From assembly GCA_022822005.1 (NCBI GenBank), contig JAJECO010000031.1:1-35028 (forward strand): a stretch of DNA of 35,028 bases, written 5' to 3'. Made by a program: the position numbers and the translations under genes. The notes beneath the pieces are model-generated. The model was not told the DNA's origin, did not search any database, and saw nothing but the letters and a program-made list of their open reading frames with translations. Source of the stretch: Candidatus Poribacteria bacterium (GTDB lineage: Bacteria; Poribacteria; WGA-4E; PCPOR2b). Positions 1-32,403 of the stretch are shown piece after piece (the first letter of the stretch is position 1; each line of letters begins with the position of its first letter).

Positions 1-2022
1 TTGGTCTGCGGTGAAGCCGACGAACTCCTGTTTCGCTGTGTCGAGCCGAATCACGACGGTTGCACCAACCATCTCAGCAAACGAACTTGCGGTGTAGGGT
101 TCTGCGGGCATCAGTGGTAAGGAGATCATGTTCAGACCGGAGGCCAACGTCATCTCAAACTTATACCCTGGTTTCTCTGGCTCGGGTTCTACCGGCGGTT
201 CCACAGGCGGCAGCCCAGCGGGCTTAACAATCAAGCGTGCGGTAGGCTCAGTCCAACCAAAAGTAGCTCCTACATCACCAACACCAGCGATACCGGGGTG
301 TGGCGTAATGACGCCTCCTTCAGTGGGTGCGCGTTCCATGCCGCCAAATGGGGGTCCCGGCACATGCGTCGCCAGTTCGTTGTTATCTTCCGTACCGGCA
401 TCATAGGATATTAGACCCATTTCAATCGTGACCGGGTTACCATCTTCGTCGAAGAGTGGCAAACTGTTACCCAACACGATCCCGTCATTGGTTTGCACAA
501 GCATCGTCGCCAATGAGAGGTATCCGGCATCAGAACTGGTGCTGATCGTTGCTGTGACAGTCCCACCGGGAATCACCACTCCTTCTGGAGGGGCGGGAAA
601 TGCAACGACACCGCTGACTGCGTCTGATCCACCAGCCAATGCAGCGAGAGGCGCATGGTTGCCGGTTTCCGCTAATTCGGTGAGTTCTGCGCTGGACGCT
701 TCACCTGAGGCACCGATTGAGAATCCGTGACCGTGTGTCACAAAGATGGGCGGTGAAAAGATCTGACCGCCTTGACCCGGCGCACCCATAGTTAGGTTTG
801 TCAGCATCACTTCGAAATCAACAGGCTCTGCGGGCATTTCAGGCATCTCGACCACCGCTTCAACAGTTACGGTCGCGGTAGGTTCCGTCCAACCAAAAGT
901 GGCTCCTACATCACCAACGCCAGCGATGCCGGGGTGGGGTGTAATGACGCCTCCTTCGGTTGGTGCGCGTTCCATGCCTCCAAATGGGGGTCCCGGCACA
1001 TGCGTCGCCAATTCGTTATTGTCTTCTGTCCCTGCGTCATAGGATATTAAATCCATTGTGAACGAACGTGGGCTACCATCTTCGTCAAAGAGTGGCAAAC
1101 TGTTACCCAAGACGATCCCGTCATTGGTTTCGACAAGCATCGTTGCCAATGAGAGATAGCCGGCGCTTGCACTGACCATCGTTGTAACGGACCCGCCGGG
1201 GATGACGACCCCATCTGGCGGAGCGGGAAATGCAACAATACCGCTGACTGCATCTGATCGACCAGCCAATTCAGCGAGCGGCGCATGGTTGCCAGTTTCT
1301 GCCAATTCGGTGAGTTGAGCGCTGGCTGCCTCACCTGAAGCACCGATTGAAAACCCGTGACCGTGGGTTATAAAGATGGGCGGTGAAAAGATCTGACCAC
1401 CTTGCCCCGGCGCACCCATAGTTAGGTTTGTTAGCGTCACCTTAAACTCAACAGCCTCAGCCATCTCAGGCATTTCCGGCATTTCCGGTGTCTCGGGCGT
1501 CATTGGTGTTTCTGGCATTTCCGGTGCGGGTCCGGTAACCATGCCACCTTGGACTGTTACGTCTATTGGGGTCGCTGTTGCATCAGAAACCAGGACATTG
1601 CTCAACCCGATCGCAGAATCTTTGGCTTCAACGATTGAAAAGGTCGCCGTCGCAAGCGTACCGTCCCCATCTGCGGTGGGAACACCACTTGCTGTGGGCA
1701 AGCCGGCTGCACCGACCGTTACACTGGTATCGGTGACAATTGGCGCCGTAGCGAACGCACCGGCTGGCAGGTAATCCCCGTTTGCAATGCTGACATAGGA
1801 CAGCGCGGTTGGATCGAATGTCACAGTTACTTGATAGCCCGCGACACCCACTCCGCCTGTGATGTTGATATTAACGGTCAACTGTTCTCCGGCGGCTGGA
1901 GATTCAATTGAGGCTGGATCAATCGAGACAGTCTGGCCATAAGCCATACCTTGAACTACGAGTAGTGCAAATACGGCGAAAATGGCTAAGAACGTGTTTG
2001 GATTGGCAATCTGACGTTTCAT
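1..2022 (-). CDS. Secreted cohesin - tandem Spondin_N surface protein (3' end outside window)
   Basis: The reading frame is open from ATG at 2022 to the window edge (674 codons, no stop), so the C terminus is missing. An AAAGGAG ribosome site lies 7 bases before the ATG. Residues 1-30 look like a signal peptide (basic start, hydrophobic core, cleavage near AYGQ). Residues ~31-165 read as a cohesin-type beta-sandwich: VSIDP start, a V-GYQVTV-FDP strand and a late T-SDATATPIDV strand. A spacer rich in Pro, Glu and Met (PEMPETP) follows. Residues ~191-385 and ~401-594 are two near-identical copies of a Spondin_N-like domain (LTNLT, FSPPIF-THGHGFS, GEAS-AELTELAETGNHAPLA, LSLATMLV-TNDG). After another Pro/Glu linker comes ASGLNMISLPL, a start also seen in other modular secreted proteins. 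Spondin_N occurs in animal matrix proteins and in some bacterial exported proteins. A role in adhesion or host-matrix contact is inference. The cohesin call is by fold pattern, not by search. Confidence 0.82.
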   Translation of the reverse strand, partial: MKRQIANPNTFLAIFAVFALLVVQGMAYGQTVSIDPASIESPAAGEQLTVNINITGGVGVAGYQVTVTFDPTALSYVSIANGDYLPAGAFATAPIVTDTSVTVGAAGLPTASGVPTADGDGTLATATFSIVEAKDSAIGLSNVLVSDATATPIDVTVQGGMVTGPAPEMPETPMTPETPEMPEMPEMAEAVEFKVTLTNLTMGAPGQGGQIFSPPIFITHGHGFSIGASGEAASAQLTELAETGNHAPLAELAGRSDAVSGIVAFPAPPDGVVIPGGSVTTMVSASAGYLSLATMLVETNDGIVLGNSLPLFDEDGSPRSFTMDLISYDAGTEDNNELATHVPGPPFGGMERAPTEGGVITPHPGIAGVGDVGATFGWTEPTATVTVEAVVEMPEMPAEPVDFEVMLTNLTMGAPGQGGQIFSPPIFVTHGHGFSIGASGEASSAELTELAETGNHAPLAALAGGSDAVSGVVAFPAPPEGVVIPGGTVTATISTSSDAGYLSLATMLVQTNDGIVLGNSLPLFDEDGNPVTIEMGLISYDAGTEDNNELATHVPGPPFGGMERAPTEGGVITPHPGIAGVGDVGATFGWTEPTARLIVKPAGLPPVEPPVEPEPEKPGYKFEMTLASGLNMISLPLMPAEPYTASSFAEMVGATVVIRLDTAKQEFVGFTADQ
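241..1452 (-). repeat. Tandem 630-636 bp coding repeat (two Spondin_N units)
   Basis: The segments 1452-871 and 822-241, read on the minus strand, are close copies with a period of 630 bp at the upstream end and 636 bp at the downstream end. The 6-bp difference is a two-codon insertion before the GYLSLATML motif of the second unit. Long stretches are nearly identical at the DNA level, which suggests recent duplication or continuing gene conversion. Confidence 0.9.
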
Positions 2023-15103: not shown

Positions 15104-16333
15104 TCATTCGTCGGCGCGGATACCGTAGTAGTTTGCGTAGAACTGTTCACTCTCTCGACGCAACCAGTCCTGATCAGCAGCTTGGGCACCGAACCGTTGG
15201 TGGGAGAACATACCCAGATCTTCGCCGGGGCTTCCGTTGATGATCCAGTTCGTAAGCCATCGACCGACCGCTGCGGAACCGGCGATTCCCAGCGCGGCGC
15301 AACCGGTGGCTAAGTAGAGTCGATCAATACCCGGCACGGGACCAATCAGATAGGCGCCGTCCGGCGCAAATGTGGTCATCCCACGTCGATACTCGGCAAT
15401 CTCAAGGTCTTTCAGGATCGGGAAGGTTGGAACGAGCCGTCTCTGCGCTTCCGCCATGACCTTCACAGGCGGTTCAATATCCCCTGTCCTGAAGTTGGAT
15501 GGCATCGCTTCCAGATCAATGCTGACCGGTGTTGGCTCAAAGAACCCGTAGAGGTAACCGTCTTTGTCGGGTCTCAGATAGCAGCTGACATCGGTGACAC
15601 GTACAGCAGGATGGTGGTCGGGGATTCCGGGACTTGCCACTGTGCGGACGCGTTGATGGCGAATCGGTTGTGCCGCCGTGGTTGCGCCAAGTTTCTTGGC
15701 GAGCGTAGCACCCCACGGTCCAGCGGTGATCACGAGTTGATTTGACTCGATTAAACCGTTTTCGGTCTCAACACCGAGAATCTCCCCATTGCGCTGTCGG
15801 AATCCTGTTACCGGCGTATTCAATTGGATTTGGACGCCCAAATCCCTTGCGGCAGCGGCATAGGCACGAGCGCACTGCTGAGGATCAACATATCCGTCGT
15901 TTGGGACGAAATACCCACCTTCAACCTTGCTGACATCCAGCGCGGGAGCGAGACGAGCCATCTCGGCGTGGGAGACAAAGTCCGCTTCGATCCCGTTTCG
16001 GTGGGATCGTTCGATTTGACGCCCGTAGGCTTCCATCCGTTCTGGTGTGAGCGCGACCATCAAACTCCCGGTCTGGCGCAGACCGGTATCATGTCCGGTT
16101 TCGTTTGGAAACTGGGAGAACAGTTCGAGCGCGTATCGGATCGCATTCAGCATGGTAGCCGAGGACCGAATTTGACCGACGAGTCCTGCCGCTTGTGGTG
16201 TCGTCTCGACAGCGATTTCCTCGTTGCGCTCAAGAACGAGCACATCCTTCTGTCCTGATTTAGCTAAGTGATAGGCGGTGCTCAGTCCCCAAATACCACC
16301 GCCAACGATTAAAACTTCTGTTTGTTGTGCCAT
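15104..16333 (-). CDS. FAD-dependent oxidoreductase of the DAO (sarcosine oxidase-like) family
   Basis: The 409-residue protein begins with the FAD-binding GGGIWGLS motif (11-18) followed by the acidic VLERN strand end. It contains GYVDPQQCARAYAAAARDLG (about 147-166), typical of the DAO fold in which an amine or amino acid is oxidised, and the late CAALGIAGSAAVGRWL second FAD-contact segment. Length fits the sarcosine-oxidase beta/glycine oxidase group. The substrate is probably a secondary amine or amino acid, but cannot be fixed. AAGGAAAG lies immediately before the ATG. It is divergent from the nitroreductase gene across 87 bp, which must hold both promoters. Confidence 0.9.
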   Translation of the reverse strand: MAQQTEVLIVGGGIWGLSTAYHLAKSGQKDVLVLERNEEIAVETTPQAAGLVGQIRSSATMLNAIRYALELFSQFPNETGHDTGLRQTGSLMVALTPERMEAYGRQIERSHRNGIEADFVSHAEMARLAPALDVSKVEGGYFVPNDGYVDPQQCARAYAAAARDLGVQIQLNTPVTGFRQRNGEILGVETENGLIESNQLVITAGPWGATLAKKLGATTAAQPIRHQRVRTVASPGIPDHHPAVRVTDVSCYLRPDKDGYLYGFFEPTPVSIDLEAMPSNFRTGDIEPPVKVMAEAQRRLVPTFPILKDLEIAEYRRGMTTFAPDGAYLIGPVPGIDRLYLATGCAALGIAGSAAVGRWLTNWIINGSPGEDLGMFSHQRFGAQAADQDWLRRESEQFYANYYGIRADE

Positions 16334-16420
16334 TTTCTTTCCTTACATGTGAAGCGTGGAACGTATAGGGTTGGATCCGCAGCTACGCTGATATATTACG
16401 CCTTGTGTTAGGAGATCCCT

Positions 16421-17194
16421 ATGGACCTTTTCGATGCTATCGCCCAACGCCGCACCCATCGCGGCGACTTTCGCAAAGACGCAATTTCTGAGGAACACCT
16501 TGACCAACTCATCCAATCGGCGCAGTGGGCGCCCTCCCCATTCAACACACAGCCTTGGGAGTTCCTCATTATTCGTGAAAACGCTGGGAAAAGCGCCCTT
16601 GCGGAGTTGACCGCGAAGAGTGTTGTTGATCAATTCAAAGACAGTACTTTTCTGGATGACAATAGCCGCTGGATGCGTCTGACAGAAGCGGAGTGGGAAG
16701 AACGCCGCGACGGCGTGCTGCTGACCGATCATGTTGATCTCCCGCCGATGTTCCGTAAAGATCCGACTAAACTCAAGCCACTTCTGAAACATGCGAAACA
16801 TCTCAGTATTCTGGGACATCTGGGCGCAGGCAAGGTGCCGGCCAAAGAAATCTCCGAGCTTGTCCGCAGTTCGCCGCTGCTCCTCCTCGTCCTGATGGAC
16901 GGTACCAGACGCCCGCCCGGCGAAGGCGGGGATCGGTGGATGTGGCTGGGCATGGGCGCTGCCGTAGAGAACCTACTCCTAACGGCCACAGCACTTGAAA
17001 TCGGCACACAGTTTGTCAGTGCACCGCTGGAAAGTCAGGATGATCGAGAAAAAATTCAGGAATCCTTTAATATCCCAGACTCCCATGAGATTATTACGCT
17101 GCTGCGACTCGGCTACCTTGACACGCCAAGCGGTAAATCCGTCCGTTTGTCCTCATCGACGGTTGTGCACCACGAAAATTATCAACCCAAATAG
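16421..17194 (+). CDS. Nitroreductase family flavoprotein
   Basis: The 257-residue protein has the FMN-binding N terminus of nitroreductases: MDLFDAIAQRRTHRGDF (R10, R11) and SAQWAPSPFNTQPWEFLI (about 33-50), where Ser and Asn contact FMN and the substrate. The central part is longer than in minimal family members (residues ~75-150). WMWLGMGAAVENLLLTATALEIGT (about 173-196) is the typical dimer helix. Members reduce nitro groups, quinones, or act in dehalogenation and cofactor metabolism; the substrate here is unknown. AGGAG lies 6 bases before the ATG. Confidence 0.9.
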   Translation: MDLFDAIAQRRTHRGDFRKDAISEEHLDQLIQSAQWAPSPFNTQPWEFLIIRENAGKSALAELTAKSVVDQFKDSTFLDDNSRWMRLTEAEWEERRDGVLLTDHVDLPPMFRKDPTKLKPLLKHAKHLSILGHLGAGKVPAKEISELVRSSPLLLLVLMDGTRRPPGEGGDRWMWLGMGAAVENLLLTATALEIGTQFVSAPLESQDDREKIQESFNIPDSHEIITLLRLGYLDTPSGKSVRLSSSTVVHHENYQPK

Positions 17195-17366
17195 GGGCGT
17201 AGACCGTAACCGTTGAACAGATCGGGTTCATCAGTTCATTAGTTCAAAAGTTCATTAATCACAACCATGAACAAATGCATCAGTGAACCAGACGGCGGTG
17301 CGTCCATCTCTCGCGCTCCAGAGGAGCACAATGTCCAGTCCTCCCATTCAATGAAGCAGTGGACTA

Positions 17367-19016
17367 TTACAGCCGTCGAGCGATTGCGCTTAGCAGTTGA
17401 TCCAGCTCTCGGATCCGCATTAACTTGGCGCCCACTACCAAAACCGCTACGCCCAACCCAATCGGGACAAACACACCGATGAGCCGAGCGGTAATGCTTT
17501 CGACACCCAGCCATCCCTCAATCTGTGTGTAACTCCACCAGCAGACGCCCCCCATAACAGCAGAAGCAAGTGCGAGTTTAATTAGTAGTAGCCAGATGCG
17601 GGCTAATCCCAATTCGCCTGCCCTTCCGCGCAGAAGAAACAGCAACGCAAGGAAATTCAGCGTAATCGTGCAGGAGGTCGATAGTGCAAGGGATCGGTGG
17701 TCGAAGCCGAGCTGGTAGATAAAGAGGTAGTTCAGGGTGATATTGAGTCCAACGGTGCACAGGCTAATTATAGCAGGAGTGCGTGTGTCGTTGAAGGTAT
17801 AAAATCCGTCCGTCGCGATTTTGACTGCCGAAAAACCGCAGAGACCGAAGGCGTAGTAGAACAGGGCGCCCGCTGTCTGTTGCGTATCGAGAGGACTCGC
17901 TTGCCCCCCCTCAAAGATGAGGCGACAGATCGGTTCAGCAAGTACCATCAACCCGATCGATGCAGGCACCGTGAGCAGAAAGGTCAGACGCAGCGCATAC
18001 GAGAAAGAACGGCGATACGCCTCCATGTCTCCCTCTGTGACCAATTTCGCGAGGTTCGGCAGGGCGACGGTGGAGATCGCAACGCCAAAGACACCGATCG
18101 GTAGGTGCATGAGCCGAAAGGCACGATTAATCCAGGTCAGCCAGCCCCCGCCCTGCGATGCAAAGATTGAGTTGACCAGCACGTTTATCTGCAACGCAGC
18201 GACCCCAAGGATCGCCGGTCCGATCAGCCGCATCACCTGTTGCACCCGTTCGTCACGAAAGCTGAGAAGGGGCTGATAGCGGAATCCAACCCGCCGTGCT
18301 GACGGCACCTGGATTAGGAACTGCAACGCGCCTCCAACGACTACGCCAACCGCCATCGCCGTTGTCCGGTGTAGGTCAAGGCTCGGTGCGATATAGTAAC
18401 CCCACACCCCAACGATTAACGAACCCACGTTGAAAAAAGAGGACGCGGAGGCGGGCAACCCAAACTTGCCCTTGCTGTTGAGAAGCCCCATCGTGACCGC
18501 TGCCAGCGAAACCAGTATCAGGTACGGAAACATGATCTGGGTCAGGTAGACGGTCAGATCACGCTTGGACTCGAATCCGGAATGTTCCGACGGATCGAGC
18601 GGCACCTCTTGGAACCCCTTGCCGGTGAATATCAGATCGACGATAGCGGGGGCAGCGAAAATCCCAATGACCGTTATCAGTGTTAGCAGGAGGAAACTTG
18701 CGTTAAAAACTCGACTCGCCAAACGCCAAGCGGCTTCTTCGCCGTCCTCCAACTCGGTCGCTGTAAAGGTTGTGACAAACGCCTTGCTCAACGCGCCTTC
18801 GCCGAACAGATCCCGCATCAGGTTTGGGATTCGGAACGCCGCATAGAACGCATCACCGCCAACGCCGGCGGCAAAGTAGTAGGCAATCACCTTCTCTCGG
18901 ACCAGGCCCAGCAGCCGCGACGCCATGACGGCGACACTCACGATCCCGGCAGATCGGGTGACGCGCTGCTGGTCCTCGGAGGTTGTGGTTGTGGCGGTAT
19001 CAATTTCACTTTCCAT
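17367..19016 (-). CDS. murJ: Lipid II flippase MurJ
   Basis: The 549-residue multi-span protein moves lipid II across the inner membrane for peptidoglycan synthesis. The N-terminal third is strongly diagnostic: SRLLGLVREKVIAYYF (about 33-48), then GGDAFYAAFRIPNLMRDLFGEGALSKAF, the core of the MviN/MurJ family. About 14 hydrophobic segments follow, with FRLMHLPIGVFGVAIST in the seventh-helix region and a typical C-terminal end. No clear ribosome site precedes the ATG, but the gene starts 21 bp after the DUF4268-like gene, so coupling or read-through is likely. Its presence implies a peptidoglycan-containing, probably Gram-negative-type cell. Confidence 0.95.
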   Translation of the reverse strand: MESEIDTATTTTSEDQQRVTRSAGIVSVAVMASRLLGLVREKVIAYYFAAGVGGDAFYAAFRIPNLMRDLFGEGALSKAFVTTFTATELEDGEEAAWRLASRVFNASFLLLTLITVIGIFAAPAIVDLIFTGKGFQEVPLDPSEHSGFESKRDLTVYLTQIMFPYLILVSLAAVTMGLLNSKGKFGLPASASSFFNVGSLIVGVWGYYIAPSLDLHRTTAMAVGVVVGGALQFLIQVPSARRVGFRYQPLLSFRDERVQQVMRLIGPAILGVAALQINVLVNSIFASQGGGWLTWINRAFRLMHLPIGVFGVAISTVALPNLAKLVTEGDMEAYRRSFSYALRLTFLLTVPASIGLMVLAEPICRLIFEGGQASPLDTQQTAGALFYYAFGLCGFSAVKIATDGFYTFNDTRTPAIISLCTVGLNITLNYLFIYQLGFDHRSLALSTSCTITLNFLALLFLLRGRAGELGLARIWLLLIKLALASAVMGGVCWWSYTQIEGWLGVESITARLIGVFVPIGLGVAVLVVGAKLMRIRELDQLLSAIARRL

Positions 19017-19037
19017 TTATAGCCAATGCTTTTTCGT

Positions 19038-20021
19038 CTATTCGTCCGTCTCGTGCTCTTCGGGGAGATAATCGCTGGCATCGAGCCCCTTAACCAGCGG
19101 CGAGAAGACCTTGTGAAAGATTTCGAGTTTTTTACATAACCACTCGTGCTGTCTGTTCCAGTCTGAGCGGTCTTCGAGATCAATTTTCTCCAGAGAGAGG
19201 CTTATTTCGCTTCGCTCCCAATCGTCCTTTTCATCCCACTTCAGCTTGTCACCAATCTCTTCTTCGATATCTGCCTTTTCCCTTTTCAAGAGCTGGAAGT
19301 GAGGTTTTGCATCGGGGCCTCTAAGCGTAAGGCTCACACAGATCCATTTGTCTCTCACGCTAGCAGAAGCAGCGAGCAGAAACTTTGAGCGACCAATGCT
19401 AACACCTAGCCAGTTCGCAGTCCGAGGTTCTCTGGGGTTAATCACGCCGTCACGTTGTTCTAGAAGATTTCGTAGCTTCGTCCAGTATTCGAGATACAAC
19501 TGATTTGTGGTGCTTAATTCACCTCGCGATATTCTCGTAACAGTTTTCTGCCAACTGTTAGGATGTGAGACCACGTTAAACTTCGGTGCCATCGGTGAAT
19601 CATTAATTCGCCACAGTTGAATCTCCAGCCCAAAGAAGCTAAACCTTTCATCTGTAATCTCGTTGAGCCAATCCAGTGCAGCACGGTGTTCATCCGTAAA
19701 GCGTTCCGCGATCCATACTACTGTTACAGCCTCCAACCCGGCGGCGTATGTCAATAACTGTCCGAGATGGGTGTGATTTGTCCGCTCAAGCTGATTTTCA
19801 ATGACTACCCAATTGTCCGTTACTGTATCCTTACACAGAATATCAGCCCTGAACGGACCAACATTTTTTTCCTGCGCCTCGACTTCAAGCTCAACTCCAA
19901 TCGTCTCACTGAGCAGGCTTATATTTTCCTCACGAGCTAACCAAGGGGTGAAAACACTCGCTTCACCTTCCCAGAACTCCCGGAGCGGTACTTTGATTAA
20001 ACGTCCAAGTTCTTCTTCCAT
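19038..20021 (-). CDS. DUF4268-like protein with PD-(D/E)xK-type N-terminal domain
   Basis: The 327-residue protein is soluble. Residues ~30-110 look like a restriction-endonuclease fold: D60 in FRADILCKD, E75-x-Q77 in WVVIENQLE, then THLGQLLTYAAGL. Gln replaces Lys of the classical motif, as is common in this type of protein. The C-terminal half (about 150-320) resembles the DUF4268 domain, with WLGVSIGRSKFLLAASA and paired acidic and aromatic residues. Proteins of this kind are often found alone and their role is unproven; DNA repair or defence has been suggested by fold only. AGGAG and AAGG precede the ATG. It appears to be co-transcribed with murJ. Confidence 0.75.
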   Translation of the reverse strand: MEEELGRLIKVPLREFWEGEASVFTPWLAREENISLLSETIGVELEVEAQEKNVGPFRADILCKDTVTDNWVVIENQLERTNHTHLGQLLTYAAGLEAVTVVWIAERFTDEHRAALDWLNEITDERFSFFGLEIQLWRINDSPMAPKFNVVSHPNSWQKTVTRISRGELSTTNQLYLEYWTKLRNLLEQRDGVINPREPRTANWLGVSIGRSKFLLAASASVRDKWICVSLTLRGPDAKPHFQLLKREKADIEEEIGDKLKWDEKDDWERSEISLSLEKIDLEDRSDWNRQHEWLCKKLEIFHKVFSPLVKGLDASDYLPEEHETDE

Positions 20022-20037
20022 TAGCCTTATCTCCTCT

Positions 20038-20199
20038 ATAACCTTTGGTGCTAGTTAGTGAGAAAGCCGTTTCCACATTGTTCAAATCGCTTTGGATCCC
20101 GATTTATCGGGGAGTTCATTGGTTCATTCATTCTCCTTACGTTCTGCCTTTCGGATACACATGTCGCCCCTCTGGGGCTAAATGAACCGATAAACCAAT
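20038..20199 (+). repeat. Dispersed intergenic repeat, copy A
   Basis: This ~160-bp segment aligns on the same strand with 23767-23948. Shared landmarks in order are AACCTTTGGTG, GAGAAAG, CTTTGGATCCCG, the palindrome CCCGAT-TT-ATCGGG, GGGGAGTTCATTG with TTCATT words, and an identical 33-base block from 20154 that contains GCCCC-TCT-GGGGC. No ORF with a plausible product is present. It lies upstream of the DUF4268-like gene and may hold its promoter. Confidence 0.85.
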
Positions 20200-20253
20200 G
20201 ATTTTCACGCATCACGTTATTAACAACTGCAAACTAGCACCATTGGTTCTATA

Positions 20254-21486
20254 TCAATTCCAATCTACCGGCGATTTCATCTGTCCGAGCAGCGTGCGGC
20301 GCACCCAATCCAAGGATTGGACAACCAACCACCGACGAATATGATCGCTATCCTGATAATTGCGACTCCGCTCAAAGAGACGAGTCTTCCCAGGTCCATT
20401 CAAGGCAATAAAGGTAGAAGAATCTTCATAGGGTCCAATCATTGCAAGTCCCATACCACCCGACGGTGTCACATCCTCAGCGAGGGACACAGCGAGGGCA
20501 CGCGCTTCTTCAACATCCGTAGGGTCCGCGATGGCAGCATCCGCGTGTTTCGACGCCTCGGCTAAGTTTGCCGGGGATAGGTTAGTTGTAACCAAGTCGG
20601 CGTAGCCGGACTCAACGAGATCTCGTGCGAGTTGACCGCCGGCGAGTGTATCAACGACACCTATCTTGAGCGATTTTTCCTGCATCAACTCACCGACAAC
20701 CTCAGCCACCGTTACCTTCCCCACACCATACACGGCGACCCCCAACCGCTCACGGAGTTTTTCTTCCATCCCAGCGACAAGCGTATCGGCTTCCTCGTCC
20801 GTATCCGCCTTTGCGGTGATCCGCACGTCCGTCTGACCGATATGTGCTGCCAGTCCGACGGTAGGATTCCCCTCCGTCATCAGATCACCGATGCCCCGAT
20901 CGATATTACTCTCTCCCACCGCGCATGTGCGCAGCACACGAACCCGCGTCACCTTGATGCCACCCATGCGTTCAATCAGCAGCGGGATGACGGTGTTCTC
21001 CATCATGTGGTCCAGCTCCCTCGGAACACCCGGCAGCGAAATGATGCACCCACGGCCATTCACATCTTCGCTCAAATAGCAGGGGGCTGTTCCCACCGGG
21101 TTTGTCAACGGGGTTGCGCCTTCGGGAATGTAGGCTTGGCGTTTATTGTTGTCCGCCATTGGTCGACCAAAACGGTTGAAACGTGCGGCAATCTCCGCCT
21201 CTAATTCCGTGCTGTAAACCAGTTTACGGCCTGTCGCATTCGCAACCGCTTGGCGTGTGACATCGTCCACCGTCGGACCGATGCCGCCGGAGGTGATGAT
21301 GACATCCGACCGATCCAGCGCCAGGTTGAGGACCTCAGTCATTCGGTCAAGATTATCGCCGACAGTTGTTTTGTAGTATAGGTCAAGCCCAATATCTCGG
21401 AGTGCGAGTGCCAATCTGTTAGCGTTCGTGTCGACAATCTCTCCGAGCAGGAGCTCGGTTCCAATCATAACAATTTCTGCGTGCAT
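20254..21486 (-). CDS. cinA: CinA-like protein with intact N-terminal and degenerate C-terminal domain
   Basis: The 410-residue protein has a clear N-terminal COG1058/MoCF domain: EIVMIGTELLLGEIVDTNA (3-21), ITSGGIGPTVDDVT (about 64-77), and the SLPGVPRELDHMM segment. In CinA this part has ADP-ribose pyrophosphatase activity. The C-terminal half is recognisable as the CinA/PncC NMN-deamidase domain by position and by the end pattern (RRWLVVQSLDWVRRTLLG). However, the ESCTGG active-site motif reads DTLAGG, so the catalytic Ser is missing, and the TGIAGP segment is poorly kept. Deamidase activity is probably lost. The start is set at ATG 21486 with AGAGGT upstream; an in-frame TTG lies one codon earlier. 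Confidence 0.85.
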   Translation of the reverse strand: MHAEIVMIGTELLLGEIVDTNANRLALALRDIGLDLYYKTTVGDNLDRMTEVLNLALDRSDVIITSGGIGPTVDDVTRQAVANATGRKLVYSTELEAEIAARFNRFGRPMADNNKRQAYIPEGATPLTNPVGTAPCYLSEDVNGRGCIISLPGVPRELDHMMENTVIPLLIERMGGIKVTRVRVLRTCAVGESNIDRGIGDLMTEGNPTVGLAAHIGQTDVRITAKADTDEEADTLVAGMEEKLRERLGVAVYGVGKVTVAEVVGELMQEKSLKIGVVDTLAGGQLARDLVESGYADLVTTNLSPANLAEASKHADAAIADPTDVEEARALAVSLAEDVTPSGGMGLAMIGPYEDSSTFIALNGPGKTRLFERSRNYQDSDHIRRWLVVQSLDWVRRTLLGQMKSPVDWN

Positions 21487-21543
21487 CAAATACCTCTTAT
21501 GTTAAAATAAGGTTTAAGATTTTTCCGGATGTGCATCATACGA

Positions 21544-21577
21544 AGAAACCGAGTTTTGAAGAAAAAACTCGGTTTCT
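21544..21577 (-). terminator. Perfect 14-bp hairpin, probable terminator
   Basis: Arms AGAAACCGAGTTTT and AAAACTCGGTTTCT surround a 6-base loop. It lies about 60 bp past the stop of the unknown gene at 21639 and before cinA, both on the minus strand. The T-run is inside the stem instead of after it, so termination is plausible but not certain. A near copy occurs at 26963-26995. Confidence 0.55.
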
Positions 21578-21638
21578 GTTCCTATGGGATTTGAAGGGAA
21601 TGCAGATCTGTGTTTGTCACTGACAATGAATTAGTGGA

Positions 21639-22499
21639 TTAAACTGGATTATCCGCTCGTAACACAACATTGGTGGCTTCGAACTCCCAGACCTCGTTAT
21701 AAACGGTTGGACGGGGGCGGGCGGGCGGATAGTTGGGCGGTGGGTTGTTCGGATCTCGCAGTTCCAGACGATCTCGACCACGAGGCTTGTCCAGCCATTC
21801 CCGATCCGCATCCGATGCGTTGATCTCCCGCAGCAAGATGAACTCCACCCAGTCAAATGCGGAGATAGCGACCTGCGCCTGAAACACACGTTTAACGTCG
21901 TTTCCGTCCCAAGTGCGGAGGTCGGGCAGCATGATGGGACCTGTGCAGACTTGGAACTGCTTATTATCCTCTACATTGAGGTTCATAACATCTACAGGAT
22001 ATTCGACCGAGATCGAGAGTCCACGGTCGGCATCGCGGTAGGTTGACCTTGCGTTCAATAGATCGCCGTTCAGGGTTGCGTCACAGATCTCACCGATATC
22101 GGTTAGCTCAGAAAAGTTTTCATGAGAGCGCACATCAACCTTGTAACTTTGATAAATCTCGCTGAGCTTTCTCGTTGAGGCTTCCTCGGATTCGTTGCTC
22201 GGTCTTCTCGCGATGCTCAACTGGGATTCATCGCTGAAAGCCATACGCCACTCACCGCTTGGAATCTGGAACATGTTTCGGGACGCGATTGTGTACTCAC
22301 TCCGACACGGTGCCCCGAGAAACATTTTTCTAACATGTCCGCTCGATTCGTCTCGGACTTCGCAGCTGGCTTCGAGGCCGAATCGGACATGATACGCTTG
22401 GCCAGGTTCTCCCACAAAACCGCCAGTCCAACGATAGTAGGGATCGGGCGTCCATGGAAGTGAATGCCAAGTAAACGTGGAGCGTGAAAAATCAATCAC
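21639..22499 (-). CDS. Protein of unknown function
   Basis: I do not recognise this 286-residue protein. It starts at GTG 22499 with AAAGGAG 6 bases upstream, a strong ribosome site. It has no signal peptide and no membrane span. It is acidic and aromatic-rich (WHSLPWTPDPYYRWTGGF near 11-28), contains several Cys, and ends with a Pro-rich stretch (NPPPNYPPARPRP, about 252-264) before a short beta-like tail. The alternating pattern suggests a beta-sandwich. It starts 51 bp after the aldo/keto reductase gene on the same strand and is probably its operon partner. A hairpin follows its stop codon. Confidence 0.8.
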   Translation of the reverse strand: MIDFSRSTFTWHSLPWTPDPYYRWTGGFVGEPGQAYHVRFGLEASCEVRDESSGHVRKMFLGAPCRSEYTIASRNMFQIPSGEWRMAFSDESQLSIARRPSNESEEASTRKLSEIYQSYKVDVRSHENFSELTDIGEICDATLNGDLLNARSTYRDADRGLSISVEYPVDVMNLNVEDNKQFQVCTGPIMLPDLRTWDGNDVKRVFQAQVAISAFDWVEFILLREINASDADREWLDKPRGRDRLELRDPNNPPPNYPPARPRPTVYNEVWEFEATNVVLRADNPV

Positions 22500-22550
22500 A
22501 GTGTATCTCCTTTCAGGGGTTCATCAATCCAATATGCCAATGAACGAACA

Positions 22551-23501
22551 CTACCGATCCTTCAGGTAGACATAGGGTCTTCCCCGCCACCGCATCCGAC
22601 GGCCCCGCCCGATGATGGTCAGTTCATACCAATCATCGCGCTCCAGCGTAATATCCGCAGCCTTCGCGCCTTCCGCAATGTGGTCGGGATTGCCGGTGCC
22701 TACGAGTGGGATAACGCCGCCGGGCAGTGCCATGAGCCACGCCAAAGCGATCTGCCCCGGGGTTGTGCCGTATCGATCAGCGACTATCTTTACCTGTGCT
22801 ACGACGCCCTGCTCCCGTTGTTCCTGCCAATCACCGAACCCTTGATCGAAGGTGTGCGGCAGCGGTTTACTTCCCGTGAGCAGTCCACCTGCAAGTGGAC
22901 TGTAGCAGAGCATATTCATCTTCTTTTGTAGGCAGACCGCGGCGAGACCACCCTCCAATGGCTCTTGGATTAACAGGTGAAATAGCGTCTGGAGTGCTTC
23001 TACGCGGGTATAAGCGGAGATGGCGCGGATCTCATCTGGCGTATAGTTGCTGACGCCGACATGTCGAATCTTCCCTTCTGCTTTCAGATCTTCCAACGCA
23101 CGGGCGGTTTCCTCGGGATGCGCGAGATAGTCAATTCGGTGCGGTTGATAAAGGTCTATATAGTCCACCCCCAGCCGCTTGAGCGATCCCTCACAGCACT
23201 CCTTGATGTAGCCCCCGGACAGATTCCATGTATATACATTTTCGTACCGCAGGGCGGCGCATTTGGAGGCGATAATCACCTTTTCACGAGGGATATTGCC
23301 CTCTCGGATGGCTTCTCCGAGTATCTTTTCGGATTCGCCGTCACCGTAGATGTCAGCAGTGTCATATAGAGTGATGCCGAGTTCATAGGCACGATGGACG
23401 GTTGCGATGCTGCGTTCCTTCGCGGTGGGTGTTAGGCTCATGCACCCCAAGGCGACAAGAGAAACCTGCTCTCCGGTTGTGCCAAGCTCCACATATTTCA
23501 T
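22551..23501 (-). CDS. Aldo/keto reductase
   Basis: The 316-residue NADP-dependent (beta/alpha)8 barrel protein carries the AKR catalytic tetrad: D47 and Y52 (YDTADIYGDGES), K80 (IIASKCA) and H121 (LYQPHRID). Cofactor-loop features are SPLAGGLLTG and the C-terminal GTGNPDHIAE. The start is placed at ATG 23501 because AGGAGG lies 5 bases before it; the ORF can extend five codons further upstream, but that overlaps the ribosome site. It is upstream of the unknown gene and likely co-transcribed with it. Substrate unknown; sugars or keto compounds are usual. Confidence 0.93.
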   Translation of the reverse strand: MKYVELGTTGEQVSLVALGCMSLTPTAKERSIATVHRAYELGITLYDTADIYGDGESEKILGEAIREGNIPREKVIIASKCAALRYENVYTWNLSGGYIKECCEGSLKRLGVDYIDLYQPHRIDYLAHPEETARALEDLKAEGKIRHVGVSNYTPDEIRAISAYTRVEALQTLFHLLIQEPLEGGLAAVCLQKKMNMLCYSPLAGGLLTGSKPLPHTFDQGFGDWQEQREQGVVAQVKIVADRYGTTPGQIALAWLMALPGGVIPLVGTGNPDHIAEGAKAADITLERDDWYELTIIGRGRRMRWRGRPYVYLKDR

Positions 23502-23766
23502 TATTTCCTCCTGCATTGGTCGGCAGTGTCGGGTTCATTTGCAAAATTGGGTGGGGATTAAAAATTGTGTGTGACTGATAATATTCATTCACCCGCATAG
23601 TAGGTATAGACAGTGAGGGATTTTAGAAAGTCATTCGTTGGATCTACTGTCTTCAGGATTTTCGTATTGAGTAGAATTATAACTTTCAAGAGATAGAATT
23701 GCAAGCGGTAGTTTTGACGGGAAAAATGGGAATTTGGGCCATTCCTGTTTTGGTCCTAGCGGAGTA

Positions 23767-23948
23767 TTAACCTTTGGTGCGAGCTAATGAGAAAGTTGTT
23801 TCCAGCTTGTTGAAGTTGCTTTGGATCCCGCCTGTCCCGATGTATCGGGGAGTTCATTGATTCATTAGTTGGTTCATCCATTCTTCTTGCGTTCCGCCCT
23901 GCAGATACACATGTCGCCCCTCTGGGGCTAAATGAAGCGATGAACCAA
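23767..23948 (+). repeat. Dispersed intergenic repeat, copy B
   Basis: This is the same element as 20038-20199, with ~20 extra bases around the palindrome (CCCGAT-GT-ATCGGG) and the TTCATT words. The final block around ACACATGTCGCCCC is identical in both copies. It ends 9 bp before the -35 box of the next promoter. Confidence 0.85.
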
Positions 23949-23956
23949 TAAAGAAA

Positions 23957-23985
23957 TTGACAGAATAAACGACATTTATTATAAT
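23957..23985 (+). promoter_or_regulatory. Perfect-consensus sigma70 promoter
   Basis: TTGACA (23957-23962) and TATAAT (23980-23985) are separated by exactly 17 bases. The expected start of transcription near 23992 falls at the ribosome site GAGGAGG itself, giving a leader of only ~14 bases before ATG 24006. It should drive the three-gene operon to 26953. Confidence 0.85.
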
Positions 23986-24005
23986 CGCACTGAGGAGGAC
24001 GATTC

Positions 24006-25028
24006 ATGTTAAGAGCAGGAATTATCGGTTGTGGTGGAATTACTGAACGTCGGCATGGACCCGTGCTAGCAAGTCTGGAGGGACGTGTCACAGTTACCGC
24101 ACTGGCAGATCTCGCCCAAGGACGCCTTGATCTAATGGGCGGAAAACTGGGGGTTGCATCGGGGCATCTTTATACCGATTGGGAAGAGATGCTTGCCAAA
24201 GAAAAACTGGACTTGGTGCATATCTGCACCCCTCACCATCTGCACGAACCCCAAGCGATCGCTGCGATGGAGCGTGGTGCTCACGTATTTCTCGAAAAAC
24301 CTATCGCTACCAACTTGGAAGAGGTTGACCGGATGATCGCTGCGTCAGAGCGCACCGGTCGCAAGATGACGGTTGGGCATAATCAACTGTTCTCGGCGGC
24401 ACACCGGGCGGCGATGGAGCAGATACAGGCGGGCGCGATCGGATCGGTGTTTCTGGTGCGTTCCGAGGGCTTTGGTGGGTCCCACGTGGTGGGCAGAGGC
24501 GTCTCACAGCAGTGGCGCACCGAAGCCAGAGCTGGGGGCGGGGGTCCCCTAATCGACAACGGTTATCATCAAGTCTACACCGCACTCAACTATGTCGGCT
24601 CACCTGCGGTCAGGGTCTATGCACGAATCGGTCGCCATGTACAGGATATCGAGGTGGAGGACACGGCGCTAGTTCTGATTGAGCACACCAACGGGGCAAC
24701 AACTTCGATACAGGTCGGCTGGTCGGCGCTGGTGGGCGGCATCAGTGTGAATGAGATTTTGGGCACTGAGGGGCAGATCCGCTTTGGCGGCGAGGCACCG
24801 GTGGCGGTGTGGCGTAAGGAAACAGGAGAGTGGGCACATCCACCGGTGGAGAGTGAAGGACCGGACGAGCTTGGGTTGCCGGTGGCGGTGCGATGCTTCG
24901 TGGATGCGATTGAAAACGATGGGGAGGTTCCGGTCTCCCCTGCAGCAGGCCGTCATGTCTTGGCTATTATCGAGGCAGCATATCAGTCCGGTAAGAGCGG
25001 CGAATCGGTGGAGGTGGATAAGCCATGA
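24006..25028 (+). CDS. Gfo/Idh/MocA family oxidoreductase
   Basis: The 340-residue NAD(P)-dependent dehydrogenase has the N-terminal motif GIIGCGGITERRH (5-17), the EKP signature at 97-99 (VFLEKPIATN), and the catalytic pair D184 and H188 in PLIDNGYHQVY. It is of typical length. GAGGAGG lies ideally before the ATG. Its stop codon overlaps the start of the next gene (ATGA), so the two are translationally coupled. With a TIM-barrel isomerase and an aldo/keto reductase following, it probably acts on a sugar, sugar acid or inositol-type compound. Confidence 0.93.
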   Translation: MLRAGIIGCGGITERRHGPVLASLEGRVTVTALADLAQGRLDLMGGKLGVASGHLYTDWEEMLAKEKLDLVHICTPHHLHEPQAIAAMERGAHVFLEKPIATNLEEVDRMIAASERTGRKMTVGHNQLFSAAHRAAMEQIQAGAIGSVFLVRSEGFGGSHVVGRGVSQQWRTEARAGGGGPLIDNGYHQVYTALNYVGSPAVRVYARIGRHVQDIEVEDTALVLIEHTNGATTSIQVGWSALVGGISVNEILGTEGQIRFGGEAPVAVWRKETGEWAHPPVESEGPDELGLPVAVRCFVDAIENDGEVPVSPAAGRHVLAIIEAAYQSGKSGESVEVDKP

Positions 25029-25867
25029 ATGACACACCATTTGAATTAAACTATATCTTGGCTTCGTGCATGTACGGCACAATCTCCTTAGCTGAAATCG
25101 TCCCCGAAGTGAAGAAGATTGGGAGTGAGCACATAGATATCTGGCCGCGTGTCCACGGCGATCAACGGGAGCAGGTTGAGTCGATGGGGAACGAGGCTTT
25201 TGCGGCGCTACTTGCGGATCACGGGGTGGGTTTAGGGGTATCAACCCGTTTCGATCTGGGTCCCTTCGGTTTAGCGGACGAGATGGCGTTTTGCCAAGAG
25301 TTTGGTGCTTCCTTAATTGTGACTGGTAGCAAGGGACCTAAGAATTTAGCGGGTGAGGAGTTACGTGCAGCGGTCGCCGAGTTCGCAGAAGGGTTGAAGC
25401 CGCACATCGCAACTGCCGAGCAGCACGGCATCACCATCAGCATCGAGAACCATAGCAGCGCGCTGATCGAATCGCCAGACTCGATGCAGTGGTTGATTGA
25501 GTTCACGGATTCCCCGTATCTCGGCATCGCCTTGGCGCCCTACCACCTTCCAGACGATGCGGAATTGGTGGCGCAGCTGATTGCGGATCTGGGGCATGGT
25601 TTAGCCCTATTCTATGCGTGGCAACACGGCATGGGCTGCCACGAGAAGTTACCCAAAGAACAGGAATTGATGCAGCTGCCGGGGCGGGGTACTTTGGATT
25701 TTGCGCCGATTTTATCTGCGTTAAAAAAGATTAACTTCTCCGGATGGACGGAGATCTTTATGCATCCGGTTCCGCGTGGGATCCCGATCCTTGATACGAC
25801 CGCAGAGGTGACCGACGAGATTAACCGTGCCCGACACCACCTAGATCAGTTCGCACAGAGCGTGTAG
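25025..25867 (+). CDS. Sugar phosphate isomerase/epimerase (xylose isomerase-like TIM barrel)
   Basis: The 280-residue protein matches the AP-endonuclease-2/xylose-isomerase-like fold. Candidate metal ligands are E141 (ISIENHS), H174 (APYHLPDD) and E243 (WTEIFMHP). GRGTLDFAPILSALKKINFSGW (about 220-241) is the characteristic last barrel strand of the family. It likely isomerises or dehydrates the product of the upstream dehydrogenase. Start ATG overlaps the previous stop by four bases. Confidence 0.9.
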   Translation: MNDTPFELNYILASCMYGTISLAEIVPEVKKIGSEHIDIWPRVHGDQREQVESMGNEAFAALLADHGVGLGVSTRFDLGPFGLADEMAFCQEFGASLIVTGSKGPKNLAGEELRAAVAEFAEGLKPHIATAEQHGITISIENHSSALIESPDSMQWLIEFTDSPYLGIALAPYHLPDDAELVAQLIADLGHGLALFYAWQHGMGCHEKLPKEQELMQLPGRGTLDFAPILSALKKINFSGWTEIFMHPVPRGIPILDTTAEVTDEINRARHHLDQFAQSV

Positions 25868-26008
25868 TGTAATTTACGTCGCTAGCGAAATCTTACGCAC
25901 ACCAACACCGGGCGTGAAACGTGATGCGTGAAACGTGAAGACAATTCCATTGGTTCAATCCTACATGAATGAACTAATAAACCAATGAACCAACCAAGCG
26001 AGGTTACC

Positions 26009-26953
26009 ATGAAAACGAAAATTCTGGGACGCACAGGGCTTGAGGTCACTATCATTGGGCTTGGAACCATATACATCGGCAGCCAACCATCGGAGCCGCC
26101 CCGAGACTTAGATGAAGAGATGGGGGCACGGGCGGTTCACGCTGCTATTGAGGCAGGCTGCAACCTGATCGACACCGCTCCGCTCTATGGGGGTACAGCC
26201 GTTGAGAAGATTGTCGGCAACGCTCTAAGAGCCCGGCCGGACCTTGCCGCTAAATGCACGGTTGTCACCAAAACGGGCGCTTATCGCGAGGGGAAAGACC
26301 ACTCTTTTGACGGCACCTTACGCAGCGTGGAAGCGAGCCTTGAACGGCTTGGATTGGAACAACTTGATCTGGTCTATATCCACGATGCGATGGGTGTGCC
26401 GATGGAAGATGTGATGAGCAAGAATGGCGCATTGGGGGCGTTGCGACGACTTCAGAACGAAGGGGTGGTGCGATTTATCGGTTCGGCGTCCAACGATCCG
26501 CCGACCAACACGCCCTATATCGAAACGGGGGAATTTGACGCAGCGGTTGTCCCCGATGCGTGGAGTCTGTTGAACCAAGAAGCAGCTGAACGTATTCTGC
26601 CTGCTGCGGAGAGATATAACATCGGAATTTCATGCGCCACGCCGCTTGAGATAGGACTTCTGGCGACGGGACCTATACCGGGGAGGGATTACGGCAGGCG
26701 ATCCTTCAGTCAAGAATGTTTGGATCACGTTGCCAAGATTCAGCGGCTTTGCCAAGAGTACAAGATTCCGCTCGTCGCTGCGGCGTTGCAATGGCCTACC
26801 CGGCATCCGCAGGTGACCACGGCAATTCCGGGCGCTCGAACCCCTGAGGAAGCGGTGGCAAATGTAGAAGCCGTTGAGTTAGAGATTCCAGACACATTCT
26901 GGGATGATCTTGACCCACTCGTTCGACACTGGGAGAAAGGGGTTCACCGGTAG
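26009..26953 (+). CDS. Aldo/keto reductase
   Basis: This 314-residue AKR-fold enzyme has D55 and Y60 (LIDTAPLYGG), K88 (VVTKTGAY) and H125 (VYIHDAMG) as the catalytic tetrad. The family's C-terminal cofactor segment appears as TTAIPGARTPEEAVANVEA. The longer ORF begins at 25985, but that ATG lies in an intergenic repeat word (AACCAATGAACC); ATG 26009 has GCGAGGT at the right distance and matches the AKR N terminus (KTKILGRTGLEV). It is 141 bp after the isomerase. The closest subgroup resembles L-galactose/D-threo-aldose dehydrogenases, a tentative view. Confidence 0.9.
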   Translation: MKTKILGRTGLEVTIIGLGTIYIGSQPSEPPRDLDEEMGARAVHAAIEAGCNLIDTAPLYGGTAVEKIVGNALRARPDLAAKCTVVTKTGAYREGKDHSFDGTLRSVEASLERLGLEQLDLVYIHDAMGVPMEDVMSKNGALGALRRLQNEGVVRFIGSASNDPPTNTPYIETGEFDAAVVPDAWSLLNQEAAERILPAAERYNIGISCATPLEIGLLATGPIPGRDYGRRSFSQECLDHVAKIQRLCQEYKIPLVAAALQWPTRHPQVTTAIPGARTPEEAVANVEAVELEIPDTFWDDLDPLVRHWEKGVHR

Positions 26954-26962
26954 GGTGCAAAG

Positions 26963-26995
26963 AGAAACCGAGTTTTTGACAAAAACTCAGTTTCT
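26963..26995 (+). terminator. Hairpin of the AGAAACCGAGTTTT family
   Basis: Arms of 15 bp with one mismatch surround loop GAC, starting 9 bases after the reductase stop codon. It sits between convergent genes and could end transcription in both directions. The core word is the same as at 21544-21577. Confidence 0.5.
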
Positions 26996-27002
26996 GTTAC
27001 AC

Positions 27003-27102
27003 AGCTGCTTAACATGAATTATCAAAAATATAAGAGAATCCCTGAATTTTTTCGCTTTTCTCTGCGCTCTTTGCGTCTTAGCGACTTTGCGTTAAATTCG
27101 GA
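27003..27102. other. Intergenic segment with TTTGCG-type words
   Basis: Between the reductase and sialidase genes there is a stretch with repeated CTCTGCGCTCTTTGCG and GACTTTGCG words, the kind of degenerate low-complexity word seen in bacterial intergenic repeats. No gene is seen. Confidence 0.45.
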
Positions 27103-28737
27103 TTACTGCTTCAACTCTGCCACACGCGAATCCAACTCCGCCAGATTGAAGCGCACACTGACGACGGAATGTTCTTCGCCCGGCTTGTGGATGAGATATG
27201 TGGTTGCGACAAATGTGCCGTCCGGCAGCACCTCTAAACCAGCATAGCCGCAGTCCCCGTATTCCTCAGGTGGGAAGTTGCCTTGATGCTGTAGCAGCAG
27301 CACACGATATTCTCCCTCTCGACCGTTGACAAGATCGTCGTAAGTACCGACCCACGCGACAAAATTGAATTTCGTCCTGCTGGCGAGCGCGGTGTCTCGG
27401 AAAACAATCACCAAACGACCGTCGGGCGCATGGGCGAGATTGTGCCGATCTCCGGTGACGCCCGCAGCGGCCTCCCCGCATTCCGACCACGTCTGCCCTT
27501 CGTCATTGCTGGTGATGATCATCGCGTTATACGCTCGCGACTGCTCACGCATCACCGCTGCGATCTGAGTCCCGTCTGGTGAACGGATAACGCCCGGTTC
27601 GTCCGGCAGTGCGTCCTCGTGCTTGGCGATTAACCGCTGCTTCTCCCACGTCAACCCACCATCAGCGGTAATACTCTGCATGATGACGTGATCGCCGTGG
27701 CTTCTGGTCCCATGGTCTACATATATGGCTATGTGTCGTCCGTCTGAAAGCGGTAGGACACGGTTCGGGACGACAATGCAGTGCAGCCCGTTCGGCTCAA
27801 ACGGCGTCCACGTCTCACCGTTATCCTCCGAAATTGACTGGCGCATATCGCCGTTGCCCTCCAGAACAATCAGGCGTTCTACCCCGTCCGGACCGACGAG
27901 CCGATGAATACAGGGGCAGTTTTTTGCGGTCTTCCAGTTATCGGGGACAGGCAGGCGTTCGCTCCACGTCAGGCCGCCGTCCGTGCTCTTCTTCAGCAGG
28001 CACGCGGGGCCACCATGTCCGAGCGGATAGGTGCAGAACATCGTTCTGTTGTCCGGCATTAGCACCGTGTCTGGATGACCGAGATATTGCCCGGGCTGCT
28101 TGTCCACGACAACCTGCCGATCCTCCTCACCAGACACATCAATCGTGGGAACAGCGATGTCAATCGGTTGCGACCGATTCCAGTCCAGTGGAATGGTCTC
28201 GCCCCGAACGGAAAAATCGTGTACCCGCAACGTTCCCTCGTAGGAGCAGAATCCAAATCTTGTTAGCTCGCCGCCAAATAGGAAATGCTTGACCGCCTTC
28301 CCGTCAACAATGATCACAACCCGCGTTCCCTTACGCACAATTTCAAAGTTGAACGGTACGCCGGGGGTGACCCAATCGGAGGAGAATGCCATCTGCTGAT
28401 GTCCAAGCACCTCACGGGGCCAGAAAACGTAGCTCAGACGCTGAAAACCGCTGATTCCAATATTATCCGTGCCGACCACAAAATTCGGTTTGTCGTTTTC
28501 GCTGCAGACCGAGAGTCTGGCTCGGAGATGAAAGTCGTTACGACCGATCCCACAGCCCGCGTATAGCAGGGATTTTTTGCCATACATCTCGATGTACCCC
28601 GTTTCAAACTCCCAGCCAAGCCCGATCTCTCGAATGTTCTTGGGAACCCCATTTTCAACGAAAACGGTTCGGGCGTTCGTCTCGCCATCGGTCACGCCAA
28701 AGGTTAATCCGACGAGGGAGGGACTATTCATGTACAT
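27103..28737 (-). CDS. Sialidase-like BNR/Asp-box protein with N-terminal lectin-like domain
   Basis: The 544-residue protein has four Asp boxes (S-x-D-x-G-x-T-W type) at about 251-258, 301-310, 355-364 and 408-417, which mark a six-bladed sialidase propeller in residues ~200-540. Residues ~1-185 look like a concanavalin-type beta-sandwich (GWEFETGYIEMYGKKSLLYAG; VPFNFEIVRKGTRVVIIVDGK). Enzymes of this kind release terminal sialic acid or related sugars from glycans, but the catalytic Arg triad and Asp/Tyr/Glu cannot be fixed by eye, so specificity is open. No signal peptide is evident. AGGAGAAG precedes the ATG at 28737. It lies downstream of the LRR protease gene on the same strand, 68 bp apart. 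Confidence 0.85.
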   Translation of the reverse strand: MYMNSPSLVGLTFGVTDGETNARTVFVENGVPKNIREIGLGWEFETGYIEMYGKKSLLYAGCGIGRNDFHLRARLSVCSENDKPNFVVGTDNIGISGFQRLSYVFWPREVLGHQQMAFSSDWVTPGVPFNFEIVRKGTRVVIIVDGKAVKHFLFGGELTRFGFCSYEGTLRVHDFSVRGETIPLDWNRSQPIDIAVPTIDVSGEEDRQVVVDKQPGQYLGHPDTVLMPDNRTMFCTYPLGHGGPACLLKKSTDGGLTWSERLPVPDNWKTAKNCPCIHRLVGPDGVERLIVLEGNGDMRQSISEDNGETWTPFEPNGLHCIVVPNRVLPLSDGRHIAIYVDHGTRSHGDHVIMQSITADGGLTWEKQRLIAKHEDALPDEPGVIRSPDGTQIAAVMREQSRAYNAMIITSNDEGQTWSECGEAAAGVTGDRHNLAHAPDGRLVIVFRDTALASRTKFNFVAWVGTYDDLVNGREGEYRVLLLQHQGNFPPEEYGDCGYAGLEVLPDGTFVATTYLIHKPGEEHSVVSVRFNLAELDSRVAELKQ

Positions 28738-28805
28738 ACTGCTCTTCTCCTGTCACATTCCAAAAATAGTAGTATAATTTAGGTTGATGGGTACGAATCT
28801 CGCTT

Positions 28806-32276: not shown

Positions 32277-32403
32277 ACGTTTCCTCCTCAGGAGCGTCGT
32301 GTTAAAGCAAAGGGTAGAGGGAAAGATCGACGTCCTTATCTCGACTCACTTTCCCACCTACTCGCCTTCATCATTCAACCTAGTGTTGTACGCATCCCAA
32401 CTC

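Follow-up and report, generated by a model that had tools for sequence, protein, structure and literature searches.

A gene at the edge of a poribacterial contig encodes a secreted protein in which a cohesin domain is joined to two tandem Spondin_N (FS) domains, and in a sister family the related gene is followed by one that encodes a Reeler-type domain and, as a rule, a dockerin. The gene lies in the 35,028-nucleotide stretch of DNA analyzed here (the window), which is contig C10, from base 1, of a Candidatus Poribacteria genome of 6.0 Mb in 97 contigs (G000). Poribacteria are a classically sponge-associated lineage. We hold, with a little more confidence than doubt, that the protein and its relatives would act as exported adaptors, with the cohesin holding a dockerin partner that itself lacks a sorting tail, and with FS domains that bind Ca2+ contacting a surface ligand. 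Confidence is much higher for the domains and the gene pairing than for the steps that involve binding and a ligand.

The coding sequence occupies positions 1 to 2022 on the minus strand, with 674 codons from an ATG at 2022; an alternative start is a GTG at 2052 (frame 1–2052). From the N-terminus, a signal peptide and the cohesin are followed by a Pro/Glu linker, the two Spondin_N domains and the start of a conserved beta domain. Residues 1–30 (1933–2022, minus strand; MKRQIANPNTFLAIFAVFALLVVQGMAYGQ) read as a signal peptide region, with a basic N-terminus and a hydrophobic core, and this leader is aligned in every orthologue. The cohesin domain (residues 38–155; 1558–1911, minus strand) is separated from the first Spondin_N copy by a linker rich in Pro, Glu and Met (1453–1530, minus strand), recognizable from its translation and its 9-base repeat units (repeat family D3), whose length varies widely among orthologues. 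The first Spondin_N copy covers residues 192–388 (859–1449, minus strand) and the second lies at 223–819 on the same strand. Alignment with full-length orthologues places the start of the GLNMISLPLMP beta domain, which precedes a T9SS-type tail, at 1–171 (minus strand); this beta domain and tail recur in about 16 proteins of G000. There are no cysteines in the window protein.

That the frame is still open where the window begins reflects the end of the contig. Bases 1–141 are shared exactly by contigs C9, C10 and C49, as expected of an assembly-graph branch point at a repeat, the repeat being a stretch identical in a pair of paralogues. The paralogue on C9 is 91% identical to the window protein and has one Spondin_N domain. 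C49 extends the window frame by 249 residues to a stop, adding the remaining beta domain and a sorting tail; since C49 overlaps both C9 and C10, this continuation may belong to either paralogue. An earlier note, made from the window sequence alone, had remarked that the frame runs off the window, and the contig end accounts for this; the paralogue and the T9SS-type tail, like the Reeler-dockerin partner of relatives, had escaped that note.

That note had also read the gene as a cohesin with two Spondin_N domains in a secreted protein of what looked like a sponge symbiont, and had suggested HMM searches and structure prediction; both approaches bear out the reading, with Pfam and NCBIfam matches above curated cut-offs and matching folds. 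Pfam Cohesin (PF00963) matches at 7.2e-10, with 39.6 bits against a cut-off of 24.1 (own-genome match C10:1558–1911). Pfam Spond_N (PF06468) matches two stretches (3.5e-14; 53.8 bits against a cut-off of 24), as does the NCBIfam model NF038123, “spondin domain-containing protein” (1.9e-67; 227 bits against 40). The AlphaFold model spans residues 31–395 (mean pLDDT 78), a range chosen because homologues with a single FS copy offered no counterpart for the second one in a full-length alignment. The model matches many solved cohesins at Z 14–16, including the non-cellulosomal Archaeoglobus fulgidus cohesin 2xdh (Z 16.0), and it matches the C2-like 8-strand sandwich of the mindin and F-spondin FS domains (3d34: Z 18.8, 191 residues aligned, rmsd 3.3; 3q13: Z 17.1). 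Agreement of two HMM libraries with the fold matches indicates that the architecture is real; it also rules out chance similarity of a low-complexity protein.

The two Spondin_N copies are 86% identical over 202 amino acids (84–86% at the DNA level), in line with their earlier description as near-identical. In another genome of the window's family (G001), identity between the two copies reaches 97%, so such duplications are recent or have been homogenized. Copy number in Poribacteria varies from one to two, and tandem Spondin_N domains also occur in other phyla (L162, L166, L175, L178); the idea that the tandem pair is a unique feature was therefore rejected. In F-spondin, the FS domain coordinates Ca2+ through a main-chain carbonyl and the side chains of two aspartates, which belong to the segments PSPDW and DAGTD; in mindin, the triplet LEV binds integrin (PMC3117680). 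Both copies in the window protein have the two aspartates, equated by sequence: Asp301 and Asp513 in a TND segment, and Asp329 and Asp541 in DAGTE. Both columns are invariant in a 31-row orthologue alignment, and the FS domains are predicted to bind Ca2+. The LEV triplet is absent from the window protein.

Other Spondin_N genes have varied layouts. Long, regular interdomain linkers, of Asp-Ala or Glu-Thr-Pro-Ala-Glu-Gly runs, are found in the Spondin_N proteins at L084 5867–8521 and L086 6656–9529. One protein (L112 5930–8257) contains Spondin_N, a dockerin and a tail, and another (L076 4133–6139, the same as L107) has two CHRD (chordin-type) domains, Spondin_N and a tail; the latter gene adjoins one for an Ig-like protein with a dockerin and a tail.

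All cohesin–Spondin_N relatives found on GTDB contigs are from Candidatus Poribacteria, and no cohesin fused to Spondin_N was seen outside this phylum among the loci examined. NF038123 is present in 56 of 85 Poribacteria genomes, almost all in the window's order. Cohesin-free Spondin_N domains are found in Calditrichia, Gemmatimonadota, Ignavibacteria, Nitrospinota, Gammaproteobacteria, Desulfobulbaceae, Euzebyaceae, Planctomycetota and others, and one is found in a Haloferacaceae archaeon (L173). Given this spread over many phyla and an archaeon, the domain alone is no sign of acquisition from a sponge or of symbiosis. A window Spondin_N copy is 37% identical to an Ignavibacterium sequence, and the match of the window protein to human spondin-2 is weak (E 0.025). 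An animal or sponge origin of the domain, judged from these sequence comparisons, is not supported, the bacterial model scoring far higher. A reading of Spondin_N as the mark of an animal-derived or host-directed module lacks support on three counts: the many phyla, the scores of 1.9e-67 for NF038123 versus 0.025 for spondin-2, and the missing LEV triplet.

Evidence on export came from the C-terminal tails. Full-length orthologues score 25–31 bits against TIGR04183 (T9SS type A sorting domain; cut-off 23), and the continuation on C49 matches, at 9e-60, a tail model built locally; the tail lies beyond the end of the window sequence. Many proteins of G000 share this C-terminal region, with a total of 76 matches. 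Sorting-tail proteins were already known from Poribacteria in 2014, when structural Por secretion genes were reported as not found and the export route as unknown (PMC3909097). A translocon search covered SprA-like proteins and the PorV family. It recovered a SprA-like protein of 2,170 amino acids (L202 5870–12382, on contig C44 of G000) that matches TIGR04189 at 1.5e-43, with 148 bits, below the cut-off of 200. A SprA-like protein is present in 58 of 59 genomes. PorV-family matches in G000 reach 2.4e-65, and eight are over the cut-off; PorV-family sequence lies at C44:71386–72366. These are candidate translocon genes for poribacterial sorting-tail proteins, and a T9SS-type route is likeliest for the window protein.

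The clearest evidence on a partner comes from the sister family, f3. At all 30 cohesin–Spondin_N loci outside the window's family f1 that have downstream sequence, a Reeler-type gene lies downstream on the same strand. The partner is secreted; it begins with the Reeler-type domain, continues with Ig-like repeats and as a rule ends in a dockerin, which has two canonical Ca loops. The C-terminal dockerin is present in 24 of 25 complete partners, the 25th (L113) having its dockerin in a separate ORF, and none of the 25 has a sorting tail. As a background, 4 of 206 other ORFs of at least 250 amino acids in these loci contain a dockerin. In all 28 genomes that have the two genes on a single contig, these lie near each other and point the same way, and the same holds for three further genomes that were checked separately. 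The f3 loci are related by descent and share wider synteny, so these counts are not independent trials; the shared gene order runs past the pair to genes whose sequences, judged by eye, suggest a Gfo/Idh-like oxidoreductase and a MacB/FtsX-like permease, which indicates that the adjacency is partly general synteny. Of 59 genomes, 43 have the Reeler-type domain, each a single time, and all 43 belong to f3. In a further genome of those checked separately (G039) the anchor gene is without Spondin_N, and the cohesin, the tail and the Reeler-dockerin neighbor are kept. Such an orthologous anchor gene, with a cohesin and a tail and no Spondin_N match, lies at L193 4093–6225 and is followed by a Reeler-dockerin gene.

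Assignment of the partner's N-terminal domain rests on several comparisons. It belongs to choice_anch_V (NF041895; 4.2e-29), and PF02014 (Reeler) matches five of six scanned partners at 22.7–26.3 bits against a cut-off of 21, the partner at L077 being undetected. The top three matches to an AlphaFold model of the partner are human F-spondin Reeler structures (3coo, 2zot and 2zou; Z 13.0–12.0; rmsd 2.7–2.8 over 123–128 residues), and other matches mostly superpose poorly. In the Foldseek ranking long multi-Ig proteins came out on top, and the F-spondin Reeler domain came first after a second alignment. The partner profile matches PDB sequences weakly (E 0.26). An invariant Cys-Cys-His near the start of the domain in the Reeler-type partners (L114 4747–8160, L117 8971–10104 and others), spaced C-x2-CH in 20 ORFs and C-x4-CH in 12, could be a site for c-type haem or a metal. 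In animal F-spondin, a single chain holds both the Reeler (reelin_N) and the FS domain (PMC3117680). With a Reeler type and FS encoded on adjoining f3 genes, the two N-terminal domains of animal F-spondin are split over neighboring genes, and these bacteria appear to hold a two-piece F-spondin that cohesin–dockerin contact could link. In the open-licence literature, no relevant paper treats Reeler, bacteria and spondin jointly, and none treats Poribacteria with dockerin or with spondin; this split arrangement, built of known domains, was likewise not found there.

The window's own family differs. A sister-family profile that works in 43 relatives found no Reeler-type protein in any of the nine f1 genomes, and PF02014 gave no match in G000, where the control was also silent. 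In the f1 genomes G001 and G003 the next gene encodes a protein with a dockerin, a cohesin and a tail (in G001 an M36-type protease), and G002 and G005 have no dockerin neighbor. On C9, a secreted beta-propeller protein ending in a dockerin (L071 1525–2802) lies directly upstream of the single-Spondin_N paralogue and is a candidate cargo in the window's own genome. In f1, then, the cohesin is kept and the cargo is not fixed.

G000 has ample material for such contacts, with 17 cohesin matches and 48 dockerin matches, 31 of the dockerins having a sorting tail close downstream and 17 lacking one. The earlier proposal of assembly through cohesin–dockerin contacts is plausible on these numbers, and the case is stronger in the sister family, where the dockerin gene adjoins. 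One of the 48 belongs to a separate window gene for a WD40-repeat protein with a T9SS-type tail (32407–35013, minus strand; dockerin C10:32863–33009), which is thus a theoretical partner of the window cohesin. Next to it, at 28809–32276 (minus strand), lies a sorting-tail protein with LRR/Big_1 and a reprolysin-like metalloprotease match. In a cohesin tree with many weak forks, the window cohesin falls together with that of the C9 paralogue, with those joined to Spondin_N in relatives and with a triple-cohesin protein; most cohesins whose protein also contains a dockerin lie elsewhere in this tree. A cluster of genes for cohesin-dockerin-tail proteins on contig C71 (about 15779–34247) includes a triple-cohesin protein and looks like a Poribacteria scaffoldin locus.

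We propose that a Sec signal peptide would take the protein to the periplasm, where its C-terminal type A sorting domain would hand it over to a T9SS-type translocon. Outside the cell, the cohesin would provide a socket for a dockerin protein without its own sorting tail, and because that partner lacks a tail, the adaptor would both recruit and anchor it. The one or two Spondin_N domains, as Ca2+-binding C2-like sandwiches, would stick to a surface, for which an anionic glycan, LPS, a lipid, or the matrix of a neighboring cell or host are options. In f3, the Reeler-Ig-dockerin protein from the next gene would dock there, giving a non-covalent counterpart of the Reeler and FS half of F-spondin. 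In f1, the absence of the Reeler protein means that the socket would have to serve other dockerin cargo, such as the beta-propeller protein on C9. We infer the export route, the cohesin–dockerin binding of the two f3 proteins, the ligand, the adhesive role and any sponge contact. A more elaborate version, which we regard as tentative and rather unlikely, is a true two-piece F-spondin: the Reeler-Ig-dockerin protein would sit in the T9SS-exported anchor and depend on it for export or retention, the complex would form a Ca-dependent adhesive matrix between symbiont and sponge, and the window protein would be a variant with doubled FS and swapped cargo.

The adaptor reading has to be weighed against a simpler one, of about the same modest probability as the two-piece version, in which the cohesin fold is structural, a T9SS-type route exports the protein as a stand-alone Spondin_N adhesin or matrix component, and the dockerins dock elsewhere, for instance on a triple-cohesin scaffoldin. 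A second, cohesin-free Poribacteria class with the layout DUF3108_like-Spondin_N-tail (L109, L111, L116, L122, L123, L127, L130, L133, L134, L141) is consistent with this: its genes are flanked, mostly on both sides, by tail-less proteins ending in a dockerin (with DUF3108_like where scanned), which shows that dockerin genes can flank a Spondin_N gene without their products necessarily binding its protein. The C71 triple-cohesin protein and the 17 cohesins could also take the 17 tail-less dockerins, and the window-family copy has no fixed dockerin neighbor. However, the Reeler-type pairing at 30 of 30 loci, mostly with a dockerin and with a tail in none of the 25 complete partners, argues against this simpler reading, as does retention of the cohesin in G039 where Spondin_N is gone.

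Two further possibilities assign the complex a particular purpose. If the adaptor held dockerin-borne enzymes or binding proteins, such as the protease and the beta-propeller, at the surface, with Spondin_N binding glycan, it could form an envelope or nutrient-uptake complex that degrades sponge or dissolved organic polymers. The beta-propeller-dockerin beside the C9 paralogue and the dockerin, cohesin and tail genes in G001 and G003, with the M36-type protease in G001, point this way; these neighbors, however, are not conserved across the family, and the commonest partner is a Reeler-Ig protein with no enzyme domain. This explanation is improbable. Host mimicry or a host-receptor role, the direction taken by the earlier note, with Spondin_N binding sponge matrix or cell receptors, is more improbable still. 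The Poribacteria genome, the two F-spondin N-terminal domain types in f3 and the conserved Ca site would suit it, but Spondin_N is found in many bacterial phyla, the 37% identity to Ignavibacterium contrasts with the weak likeness to human spondin-2, and the mindin LEV motif is absent. The adaptor reading takes in the pairing and the missing partner tails. Under it, a sponge-type lineage of bacteria would have, as a concrete example, a surface complex comparable to a matrix protein of animals; it also points to cohesin–dockerin use beyond polymer-degrading enzymes.

Among animal proteins, the parallels are with F-spondin (spondin-1) and mindin (spondin-2): the window protein has their FS fold and, where PSPDW and DAGTD would lie, both aspartates of the Ca site. 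F-spondin is further paralleled by the F-spondin-type Reeler domain encoded next door in f3. Unlike these animal proteins, the window protein has a duplicated FS domain and lacks TSR repeats, cysteines and LEV; neither a Reeler nor a TSR domain was found in it or in orthologues of full length. Another difference from F-spondin is that in f3 the Reeler and FS domains are on two polypeptides, equipped with a dockerin and a cohesin. Among bacterial proteins, those of NF038123 share the same domain model (1.9e-67) and have tandem copies elsewhere, but among those examined outside Poribacteria, most are small and secreted or consist of nothing but tandem Spondin_N, and none has a cohesin. Paired Spondin_N genes are known from the LAAO operon of Pseudoalteromonas luteoviolacea (PMC6316408). 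The f3 partner's N-terminal domain belongs to the choice-of-anchor V family (NF041895) and is Reeler-like in its predicted structure; what sets the partner apart is that it ends in a dockerin, for which the cohesin protein of the adjoining gene is the candidate anchor.

Cellulosome scaffoldins offer a parallel for the cohesin. They share the cohesin–dockerin logic, and some are attached to the cell surface, through S-layer or sortase signals. In contrast, the window protein has a single cohesin, no carbohydrate-binding module or hydrolase, and a T9SS-type tail; neither a CBM nor a hydrolase domain was found above cut-off in it or its full-length orthologues, which have one cohesin each. Non-cellulosomal cohesins, such as 2xdh of A. 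fulgidus and the Clostridium perfringens modules, likewise place the cohesin fold outside a cellulose-degrading scaffoldin, whereas here it shares its chain with Spondin_N and with a tail of the T9SS type, and in relatives it is paired with a Reeler-dockerin gene.
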